Assembly (NCBI RefSeq): GCF_037038585.1
Contig: NC_092541.1
Location: 1,609,445 to 1,673,444 of the forward strand
DNA from: Patagioenas fasciata
Taxonomy: Eukaryota > Chordata > Aves > Columbiformes > Columbidae
Length of the DNA: 64,000 bases
Reading direction: 5' to 3'
Notes under the pieces: model-generated
What the model was told of the DNA's origin: nothing
Databases searched by the model: none
The model's input: the letters and a program-made list of their open reading frames with translations, nothing else
Program-made: the position numbers and the translations under genes
Part shown: one piece after another, positions 36,705 to 60,779 of the stretch
Layout of the letters: each line of letters starts with the position of its first letter
Position numbering within the stretch: the stretch's first letter is position 1

Positions 36705-39700
36705 ATGAGCTGTGCCGTCAGGCAGGTCGTCACCGCCTGCTCCCAGGGCAGGAGCAGCGCGGGCAGCTCGGCGGCCGGCAGCGCGAGGAAGGTCTCCTCC
36801 TCTTCCTCGGGAAGACACGCCGCCTATGACTTCGGCGGTGCGGTCGTCAATTTTTCCGGCGGCAGTTTAAGCGAGGGATTACTCGGGAAGCAGCTGAGCG
36901 CCGGCAGCGCCGCCGGCGGGAGCTTCGGGGCTGCGCAGAGGGCTTGTTCTACCCTCGGATTCGGCGGCGGGGGCATCTGCGCTCGAGGCGTTGGTGGCGG
37001 TTTCGCCAGGGCCAGCGCTGGTTGCGGTGATGGGATCTTATTTGCCAACAACGAGAAGGCGACGATGCAGAACCTCAACGACCGCTTGGCCTCCTACCTG
37101 GACAAGGTGCGGCTCCTGGAGGGAGACAACGCCGACCTGGAGTGCAAGATCAGGGAGTGGTACGCCAAGGTCGGGCCCAGCTGCGAGCCCCGGGACTACA
37201 GCTGTTTCCACAAGGAAATCGAAGACCTTCAAAACCAGGTAAACCATTGTTTTTCGAGAAAATGCTCATATTTCTTTGGGCTTTGCTTTCTCATGTGCAT
37301 AGATTAGTGTCAAACGGCAGAGGCAGCAGCTGTGTCTCTGGAGGTCCCCAGGGAGCAATGATTTCTATGAAATGGGTGGTTTGAGGAAGGACACTGTGTT
37401 TACAGAGCTGAAGTTTCAGCACAGCCCGCTCCACCAAGCTGGCACGCAGGTTTCCCCACTCTGATGCCACCTAACCGATTAATAATCCCAACATTTGGAA
37501 TCATCACAAAATAAGTGGGTTGCGTTACCCCAAGTGGATGTTTCCTCCAGGGCCTCCTGTAGCCAGGGGAAGCCCAAATCTCCCTCCTACGTTTTCTTTT
37601 CCAGATCCTCTGTGCAGCCATGGAGACGAACAAAATCCTTCTGAGTATCGATAACAACAGGATGACTGCTGACGATTTCAGAGTGAAGTGAGTACAGACC
37701 TGTGCTGGACCGAGGGGTTCACGTTGCCTATGGATGGTGACGGGGAAATCCCAACACTCTGCTTGTCGTTCTGCCGCGTTAAAATGCAAATCCCTGTGAA
37801 AGGCACAGCTACCAGTGACCGTGTTCATGGCATTGCATGCCTGAAGCTAAAGAAGAACATGATCCTAAGTTTTTTCCCCACAAACTCAACTCAAGGGCTT
37901 GCCATGGTTTGCTGCCATGCTGACTTTTCTTTGTTGCCTGTGGCTTCAGGTACGAGACCGAATGTGGTCTCCGGCAAAACGTGGATGCAGATATTTGCAA
38001 TTTACGGCCCGTCCTGGATCAGCTGGCCAGCTGCAAGACCGACCTGCAGCTCCAGTGTGAGGCTCTGACTGAAGAGATGTGTTGTCTCAAGACGAACCAC
38101 GAGGAGGTTAGATTGCCCCTTACCCTTAGAGAAATGAGAAGAAAGAAGCAAAGTCCCCTCGAGTGTGAATATTACTGATACGGTGCACATATTCTCTTGC
38201 AGGAGATGAGCTGTCTAAGGAAACAGGCGACCGGAGACGTGAGCGTGGAGGTCAATGCCTCTCCCGGCCCGGACCTGCGGAAGATCCTGGAGGACCTGAG
38301 GTGCCAGTATGAAACGTTGATGGAGCGCAACCGCAAAGAGACCGAGCAGTGGTACGCCTGCAAGGTACTAGAGGCGCAGAGCGGTGCCCTGCTCTGCCCA
38401 TTGGGGATAAATGAGAGGTTAGGAACGCTTAGTGGTGATATCTTGATATCAGCAAATCTGTTGTGATATGCTCAGCACCCCATTGTGCTGCCCGCTGTCA
38501 GGGCTCTTCTCTTCATGGCAGAGGGGCCGCTGTGTGGTGTTACAGGGTCAGAGTGGGATGAAGGGGTTTGGAAATAGCCGGGTGTGCTGCAGAGTGTGCA
38601 CGAGCGGCGGTGAAGCCAACGAGATGCTGTGGTGAGGAAAGGGCTGCTCTGTTCTAACCTTGCAGGCGGAGGAGGTGAATCTGGAGGTCGTCACAAGCAG
38701 CCAGGAGATCGAGTCAAGCAACAAACAGGTCACCGAGCTGAGGCGTCAGCTGCAGGCCTTGGAAATCAATGTGCAAGCCCAGCTCACCATGGTAGGTGAT
38801 GCCAGGAGGATGCGGATCCCAGATTCCCCGTCTCTCTTTAAAAAACCGCACAAACAGAGTCGCACCTGCGACCAGACGGGCTCAGCCTGCAGCACACCCA
38901 GGTACCTCTGTCTTGTTTCCATTCTCAGAAAGAAAACCTGGAATCCTCGCTGGCGGAAACCGAGTGTCGCTACAACAAATACCTGGCTGAGCTCCAGAGC
39001 CAGATCTCGTGCGTGGAGCAGCGGCTGGCTGAGATCCGAGCAGAGATGGAGTGTCAGAACCAGGAGTACAAGACCCTCCTGGACGTCAAATGCCGCTTGG
39101 AGCAAGAGATTCAGACCTACCACTGCCTGCTGGAGGGCGGACAGCAGGACATCATGTACGGGCCAGTAAAATCTCCTCGCTTTGACTTAAAGGGATATGA
39201 AAATTCAGGATACACATCATAAAATCAACGCTGTGGTGAGGAACCAGTAGTGACCTGTTACCAGACAGGGCTTATTAGCAAGTCATGAGGCATTTGAGGA
39301 TTTGGCTCTGATAAATGTCCAGAGTATGAGCCAGAGACCGCTCCCCGGTCTCAAAGCAGTGAATGCAGCCGGGAGAGGCCCCCAGAGCCCTCCCAGCACC
39401 GGGTGCAGCACCGCAGCTCCCCAAAGGGTTTTCACCGCGAGCCGGGCAAGGTGTTTTATGAGCACTGTCATTTACCTGAGCTTTATTGGCTTTGCGGCAG
39501 CTCAACAGGATTAGGGACTGGCAGCTGAGTTAACTGAAACAATAAATTATCTAATTTCAGTTTCACACAACAATTTTAATTAAAGTTCGGGGAAATTTAA
39601 TTTGTATGCAAAGCAGTTGGCTCTTCCCAGCCTCCCATGGCCTGAGATTTTGAAACAGCGAGGCATGCTGTTAATCTCATAAATGGCTGCGCACACACAC

Positions 39701-40167
39701 AACCGACCTGCGCATCCACCTGCTCCGTGAGTTTGGAAAACTACGTGTTTTAATGGTGGTGCCCTGAGGTGGGCTCTCCGGTCCTAAGCTGGTTGTGTGA
39801 AAAATCAGTTCTCGTTCCAAAACACCAGTTGCAATGGATGAAATGATGCTGTCAGAATTTGTCTCAGAGCCTCGGGTAACCCTGAGTGCATCAGGATGGA
39901 AAAGCAGCAGCTGTCAACAGGCAGGAGGGAGGTTGTGCTAATTGTTGCTTGTGGTTTGAAGGGGAAATGGCCGGGGATGAATGAAGGGATGCAGGTAAAG
40001 CCAGCGCTCCAGGTCAGGGGGAGATCTCCGGGGTGGGAACGTTGGGGTTTTGGTCACCAGCATGGTTTCCTTTCCACAGAGGGACAGTGGGCAGAGGAGC
40101 CCCCGCGACGGCTGCTGGAAGAAGCGGTGGAATCAAAGCCAGCCTGTGCCCACCCTGCCTGCCCTGA
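36705..40167 (+). CDS. Cysteine-rich type I keratin, KRT9-like, first copy
   Basis: Exons: 36705-37238, 37605-37687, 37950-38106, 38203-38364, 38666-38791, 38929-39155, and a proposed terminal coding exon 40080-40167. They total 1377 nt (458 aa). Rod motifs [20 protein letters not shown] and [17 protein letters not shown] are clear. KRT9-like marks are the [10 protein letters not shown] segment in exon 2 and the LLEGGQQD ending, two codons longer in exon 6 than in KRT14/17. There are about 25 cysteines (5.5%), six in exon 3 alone. The head is less Gly-rich than in the next two genes. The tail is uncertain. Exon 6 ends at a weak donor (GTACGG); a clean acceptor and donor frame 40080-40183, which would add a short tail ending SLCPPCLP. 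If the donor is not used, translation runs on to a stop at 39220-39222 (GYENSGYTS). The rod is certain, the tail a prediction. Confidence 0.82.
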
Positions 40168-59100: not shown

Positions 59101-60779
59101 GAAGCTCTTTACTCTGGGTTGGTGATTTTCAGATTGAGGAGGTGAATTGGGAGGTGATTACAAGCGGTCAGGAGGTGGAGACGTGCAACAACCAGGTTAC
59201 GGAACTGAGACGCCAATTGCAAGCCTTGGAGATCGATCTGCAAGCTCAGCTCAGCCAGGTGGGTGCTGGGTTTACTGACATGGGGGGCACGGTTACAGCC
59301 AGACCTGCCAACTGGTGCGATGGTGGTGAAAAGCTCTTTCATTTTTGCATTGGAAATCATAAACCCTTGGGTGACGCTTAAATGAATTTTCTTTCTTTGA
59401 TTGTCTTGCTCATCAGAGAAATAATCTGGAATCCTCTCTGGCTGAGACCGAGTGCCAGTACAACACGCTGCTCGGTGAGCTGCAGAACCAGATCACGTGC
59501 GTGGAGCAGCAATTGGCTGAAATCAGAGCAGAAATCGAGTGCCAGAACCAAGAATACAAGACCTTGTTGGATGTCAAGTGCCGTCTGGAGCAGGAGATTC
59601 AGACCTACCGGTGCTTGTTGGAAGGAGGACAGCAGGACCTCATGTATGTAGATCTCTGAATGAATAAATGAAAGTATCAAGGGTCTGTGTTATACATTGG
59701 GAATCTGAGATAATCTTTAGTCCATCTAGAGGCTTTCACTGAGATGAAAGAGTTGTCTCATAAGAATTTTACTGTGATGAACGTTCAGATCTGAACTTAA
59801 TGTTATGCCTCGGGATCTGCAAAGCAGGCAAACCAAATCTTTTAACTGCTAGTTACAATATTGCAACTACTATATAGTATGTCAACATTTGTAACAATCT
59901 CATTTCCGTAGTAAGATAACGTGGGAACTGTCAAAACAATTAACTGCATGGCGTTTCCATGCCGAAGGAGGGCACGAATGCAAAGTAAAATGATGAAAAG
60001 AATGCGATGTGAATACCCTAACCCTATGAAAGACATAGCTTGAGACTTTGTGCCCTTTGTTGGTGTCATATGAAGTTCTAAAATACCCTGTTTCTTTGAC
60101 CCAATGTGTTCCACTAGTCACGGCGGCGGAATCGGAGTGGGAACCGGTGTAGGAGGAGGCGTCATTCGGACGAGTCACACCTACACTACAACTACAGCGT
60201 CCCACTGCCAGCCCCAGGTCCCACCCTGCAAGACTGGAGATATACAAGGTAAGAGCCGCCGTTCCACGTAAGAGCTTGTTGCTTTCTAATAAGACCAGGA
60301 GACAACACACGATAGTGGGACCTTCTCAGGAACTCACTGTGCTACAGGCATGACCTGTTATGATGGATCCACTACAGCGCAGAATTGGCCGTGTCACTGA
60401 GAAAGGGGTTTAAAGAGAGTTCTGGAGAAAGTAAATGAGCGGCCAGAGGGAGCAGTGGGACTAATAAGAGAGAGCTGGGGAAATGGGGCATGAAGGAAAG
60501 ATCTGGAAGTAAAGAGGAGGACAGGCAAACAGAGCTTAGTGAAAAGAAGAGCAAGTCTGTAACTTTGCAAGTGCAAATCCCCATTAAAACACAGTTATTT
60601 AGGGAATTTCTGGGGTTCCGTGGGCTGTCTGCCAACTGCTCTAGTTTGACAGCGCATGCGTGAAACAAGGGCGCTACCCAGACCAAATTCCTGTCATTTG
60701 AAAGCTCTTATCTCTGTTCCAATCAAATAATGCTGGTACATTTTTTTCTCCAGTGACCTGCAGAAGAATTTGTGATTAA
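56135..60779 (+). CDS. Cysteine-rich type I keratin, KRT9-like, third copy
   Basis: Exons: 56135-56623, 57495-57577, 58003-58159, 58551-58712, 59133-59258, 59417-59643, 60118-60248, 60754-60779. They total 1401 nt (466 aa), in frame with GT-AG introns. The head is shorter than in the second copy and Gly/Cys-rich ([30 protein letters not shown]). The rod runs from [20 protein letters not shown] to [19 protein letters not shown]. The tail has [20 protein letters not shown] and [16 protein letters not shown], and ends TCRRICD from a tiny last exon. It has about 28 cysteines (6.0%), the most of the five keratins. It is the closest relative of the second copy: exon 3 with its flanks is the same base-for-base, while exons 1, 4, 6 and 7 differ. 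Role and partner are as for the second copy, by inference. Confidence 0.9.

Follow-up and report, generated by a model that had tools for sequence, protein, structure and literature searches.

Ehrlich et al. 2020 (PMC7086170) described 2–4 type I keratin genes with >20 cysteine (Cys) residues 3' of KRT14 in every major clade of sauropsids, with three such genes in birds. They were named hard acidic sauropsid-specific (HAS) or K9-like cysteine-rich keratins. HAS genes are flanked by KRT9-like genes with fewer Cys, and in the published trees their products are closest to mammalian K9 and apart from hair keratins; the gain of Cys in HAS and hair keratins is regarded as convergent, as are some of the Cys positions (PMC7086170). 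The HAS concept was repeated in PMC11816140 and PMC11704414. Chicken HAS1 and HAS2 are highly abundant in beak, claws, feathers and scales (PMC7086170), KRT9LC2 protein occurs in the hard scutate scales, whereas it was not found in the epidermis between them (PMC8742010), and KRT9LC3 is found in the egg tooth (PMC12821399). We examined a 64,000-nucleotide stretch of the Patagioenas fasciata genome (hereafter the window), in which three tandem plus-strand type I keratin genes (hereafter the trio) lie between 36705 and 60779.

The three genes were identified as avian HAS1-3 (KRT9LC1-3), that is, K9-like type I keratins which expanded as a tandem array and acquired about 20 Cys each; we give this reading a probability of roughly 0.95. 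Each gene encodes a full type I rod and >20 Cys, the genes number three and lie 3' of KRT14 beside Cys-poor KRT9-like genes, and their rods are nearest to K9. In type, Cys number, gene number per bird, flanking genes and K9 affinity the trio agrees with the HAS keratins of chicken and other sauropsids, and no difference of substance was found in a comparison drawn from published descriptions rather than deposited HAS sequences. The interpretation in the first-pass annotation, which was made from the sequence alone, is correct but already published, and much of the expression test it proposed has been done in chicken.

All three genes show the type I exon pattern, have no internal stop, and carry GT..AG ends at every modelled intron (Table 1). 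The Pfam Filament domain covers the whole rod of gene 2 (E 4.6e-110). The models are intact, and their end coordinate, 60779, is the one originally annotated. The least certain piece is the terminal exon of gene 1, 40080-40167, as the exon 6 donor has a weak score of 1.1. At a lowered threshold, with acceptors that leave <4 codons before a stop dropped, 19 acceptors passed in 39215-46500. Acceptor 40080, which a stricter scan had not listed, was picked because the encoded tail, GGI..CPPC, resembles the other trio tails. On these weaker splice signals, the short tail is probably the end of gene 1, which would then stop at 40167 and lack an eighth exon. At the protein level genes 2 and 3 are 85% identical, and gene 1 is 67% identical to either. 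The three gene pairs have dN/dS values of 0.08, 0.11 and 0.17 over exons 2-6; the trio is therefore under purifying selection and has been kept by it. Among 70 genome matches to the gene 2 rod, with identity scored for the best candidates, every match of >74% identity fell in the trio, in keeping with the number of HAS genes published for birds.

Cys totals taken from the exon models reproduced the annotated counts of about 25, 26 and 28 for the trio and, over exons 1-6, of 3 for each KRT14/17-like neighbor. The residues are distributed over head, rod and tail, as had been claimed. Heads contain 5/116, 5/133 and 6/101 Cys in genes 1, 2 and 3, respectively, rods contain 18/309 in each gene, and tails contain 2, 3 and 4. 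The ten other modelled type I rods of the cluster together have 13 Cys in 3086 residues, and against this background the excess in each trio gene has a binomial P of 3.4e-15. Cys occurs in 21 rod columns in at least one trio gene and in 15/21 of them in all three. The pattern outside coiled-coil a/d positions (19/21 columns, P 0.037) is weak, as the register was estimated locally with small margins for several columns. The rod motifs annotated for the trio as a whole proved to be variable in one gene each: LCCLK is present in genes 2 and 3 and is MCCLK in gene 1, ISCVE is present in genes 1 and 2 and is ITCVE in gene 3, and YRCLL is present in genes 2 and 3 and is YHCLL in gene 1.

Two features had been proposed as KRT9-like marks of the trio. 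Exon 6 is indeed two codons longer than in the KRT14/17-like genes (227 vs 221 nt). Only gene 2 has the exon 2 motif NNK..L.IDN.RMT.DDFR without change; gene 1 begins TNK and gene 3 has RMA. Three Cys-poor genes downstream also have the long exon 6 with its ..GQQD end, together with a related motif in exon 2; both features are therefore marks of the K9-like group as a whole rather than of its Cys-rich members. This group consists here of six genes, three Cys-rich and three Cys-poor. The Cys-poor genes, which lie just right of the window (66856 to ~87258 in window coordinates), are probably the KRT9L genes of the literature. They share the K9-like rod and exon structure of the trio but have 1–2 rod Cys as opposed to 18. 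Two of the three have a Gly-rich tail exon, with 45 Gly in 106 residues and 65 Gly in 121 residues (the borders of these stretches are not fixed). In the third no Gly-rich tail exon was seen within 4.25 kb.

A maximum-likelihood rod tree was built with 22 rows comprising 13 cluster genes, K18 from the same genome, and eight human rods entered as provisional sequences. In a second tree of 21 rows every Cys was masked and the long-branch gene 11 of the cluster, also omitted from the Cys column comparison, was removed. The trio, the three Cys-poor downstream genes and human K9 formed one group with support of 97/95 in the first tree and 100/100 in the second. The proposed K9 affinity and tandem expansion of K9-like genes are thus borne out by the rod trees, by the order K14, K9-like, K19 in the cluster, and by the literature. 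Placing human K9 closer to the trio or closer to the Cys-poor three gave p values of 0.21 and 0.22. Mammalian K9, the nearest mammalian rod in the tree, is encoded by a single gene and is Gly-rich. It is also Cys-poor (PMC7086170), so the contrast with the Cys-rich trio drawn in the first-pass annotation holds.

The trio might alternatively be orthologous to the type I hair (trichocyte) keratins, of the KRT31-KRT36 kind, and have been retained in the bird. We consider this very improbable. Hair keratins have a similar Cys load and form disulfide cross-linked filaments in hard appendages, and 3/6 rod Cys columns of the provisional human K31 sequence are Cys columns in HAS as well (P 0.004). This overlap agrees with the comment in print that some Cys positions are convergent (PMC7086170). 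The hair keratins nevertheless occupy another branch of the type I tree, and the grouping with K9 became stronger with Cys masked. A place in the cluster between K14/17-like and K19-like genes, and an exon 6 length in common with KRT9-like genes, also argue against hair keratin orthology, as does the separation of HAS from hair keratins in the published trees (PMC7086170). A tree that placed the trio with a hair keratin or with K10, and apart from K9, had been named beforehand as contrary to the K9 proposal, and neither grouping occurred. The approximately unbiased (AU) test rejected a grouping in which K10 and the K10-like gene of this genome joined the trio (p 0.008). The parallel with mammalian hair keratins that had been suggested is accordingly one of convergent Cys gain, in agreement with the rod trees, gene order and literature.

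Several observations weigh against identification of the trio as HAS1-3, or limit it. A clade of the trio with K31, the single hair keratin used, is 24.7 log-likelihood units worse, yet it stayed above the AU rejection threshold (p 0.061). The human rods are provisional sequences, and K14 alone was matched to a deposited chain, over its coil 2 part (113/113 identical); K9 and K31 stay provisional. No K9 was found among deposited chains, and when four peptides of the hair keratin sequence were sought in the literature 1/4 matched, in one paper. The trio was matched to HAS as a group rather than gene by gene to HAS1, 2 and 3. Among the first eight cluster genes one chicken KRT9LC3 primer fit gene 1 best (4/20 mismatches) and the other gene 3 (3/20), which gives no clear assignment; within the window, at ≤3 mismatches, one primer had no match and the other had one 3-mismatch match in gene 3. 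Finally, a hard appendage function in this bird is presumed from tissue data that come from chicken only. As a separate observation, the KRT9LC3 reverse primer as printed in PMC12821399 fits the sense strand of exon 2 (57560-57579, 3 mismatches), possibly through a printing slip or chance; the best fits of the forward primer in exon 1 were sought on the sense strand too.

That the trio is an undescribed novelty of the bird lineage or of this species has only about one chance in fifty. While the first-pass annotation named no precedent, this idea is refuted by the sauropsid genes with >20 Cys 3' of KRT14 (PMC7086170); with three per bird already in print, the trio is not new. Least credible of all is that the genes are decaying or mispredicted and the Cys count a modelling artefact, for which the tentative last exon of gene 1 and its weak donor speak, but against which stand the open frames, GT..AG ends, dN/dS well below 1, and the 15/21 rod Cys columns common to all three genes.

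For the HAS keratins of the trio we envisage the following mechanism. In the cornifying cells of hard appendages each would pair through its rod with a type II partner, which might be a Cys-rich HBS keratin, and the pairs would assemble into filaments. As the cells die and dry, Cys in the head, rod and tail may oxidize to disulfides with neighboring keratins and with other Cys-rich cornification proteins such as corneous beta-proteins and EDCRP. The outcome would be an insoluble, stiff network. In the literature, Cys-rich keratins are taken to pair as type I with type II, to assemble into filaments and to become cross-linked by disulfides in the cornifying cell (PMC11816140, PMC7086170). The Cys content and the chicken tissues support such cross-linking for the trio; the pairing and the disulfide partners named above are presumptive. 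The genes are a fine illustration of how two vertebrate lineages separately loaded keratins with Cys for hard skin parts, a point already in print.

The present locus extends the published description in several respects. The 3' exons of some HAS and HBS genes were not found previously owing to assembly gaps (PMC7086170), and the contiguous assembly adds HAS models with 3' exons, that of gene 1 being tentative. It also adds the Cys-poor neighbors, two of them with Gly-rich tails, and a 179-bp tract that is identical between genes 2 and 3. The tract covers exon 3 and the edges of its introns, and encodes the rod segment containing the LTLC and ELCCLK cysteines. Elsewhere genes 2 and 3 are 82% (exon 1, rod part), 92% (exon 2), 88% (exon 4), 96% (exon 5) and 81% (exon 6) identical. 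From this pattern the tract is likely the product of gene conversion, and it offers a lead on conversion among HAS copies. It is conceivable, though we hold it to be somewhat short of an even chance, that the HAS genes of this bird swap exon-sized pieces by conversion, in which case part of the cross-linking pattern of the rod may stay uniform as heads and tails diverge. A limited literature search (gene conversion, alpha-keratin, birds, type I keratin) gave nothing on the trio among the titles and abstract beginnings listed, which is no proof of absence.

Table 1. Features of the window and the evidence for each.
Feature	Position	Strand	Basis
SUI1-domain exon in open frame (EIF1-like), cluster flank	2371..2682	-	Pfam SUI1 E 3.2e-12, residues 23-66/103
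KRT14/17-like gene, copy 1, exons 1-6, 3 Cys	20142..23559	+	exon models; Cys count; tree
KRT14/17-like gene, copy 2, exons 1-6, 3 Cys	27820..31426	+	exon models; Cys count; identity to copy 1
HAS/KRT9LC gene 1, 458 aa, 25 Cys	36705..40167	+	exons 36705-37238, 37605-37687, 37950-38106, 38203-38364, 38666-38791, 38929-39155, 40080-40167 (terminal, tentative)
HAS/KRT9LC gene 2, 503 aa, 26 Cys	46787..51194	+	exons 46787-47371, 48116-48198, 48851-49007, 49242-49403, 49805-49930, 50042-50268, 50401-50546, 51169-51194
179-bp tract, exon 3 and intron edges, gene 2	48847..49025	+	identical to 57999-58177
HAS/KRT9LC gene 3, 466 aa, 28 Cys	56135..60779	+	exons 56135-56623, 57495-57577, 58003-58159, 58551-58712, 59133-59258, 59417-59643, 60118-60248, 60754-60779
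179-bp tract, gene 3	57999..58177	+	identical to 48847-49025 of gene 2

The window contains five type I keratin genes, all on the plus strand. Over the 190 kb examined, which extends beyond the window, the cluster comprises 13 plus-strand genes and one partial match on the opposite strand. Its order is the SUI1-domain gene, two KRT14/17-like genes, the trio (cluster genes 3, 4 and 5), three KRT9-like genes, a K19-like gene and a K13-like gene. From this order the trio lies at the position corresponding to mammalian KRT9. The open frame that contains the SUI1 domain is EIF1-like, and EIF1 is a neighbor of the mammalian type I cluster. The bird type I cluster has been assigned to microchromosome 27 (Greenwold et al. 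2014, PMC4264316).

The two KRT14/17-like genes group with the provisional K14/K17 sequences with support of 90/90 and 92/95 in the two rod trees. Their copies, compared over 20024-23594 and 27702-31461, are 98–99% identical over exons 1 and 3-6 and 84% identical around exon 2. Such a mosaic is suggestive of a recent conversion or duplication.

Keratin genes aside, the seven cytochrome b matches of the genome contain stop codons under the standard code and are on long contigs; they were taken to be nuclear copies. Other keratin features were noted elsewhere in the genome, for which we use our own contig numbers. Among the matches listed, partial Filament matches (profile positions 238-311) of near-equal score occur eight times on C34, once on C14 and once on C37. 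Some of those on C34 are ~16.8 kb apart, as in a repeated unit. Arrays of avian beta-keratin (PF02422, corneous beta-protein), with at least 150 matches, are present at 5.0–6.2 Mb of C29 and also on C37, C2 and C16. Their number points to a bird genome. Most of the beta-keratin matches listed are on the contig that also carries the type I cluster, and several blocks, evenly spaced and with the same score, resemble tandem copies.

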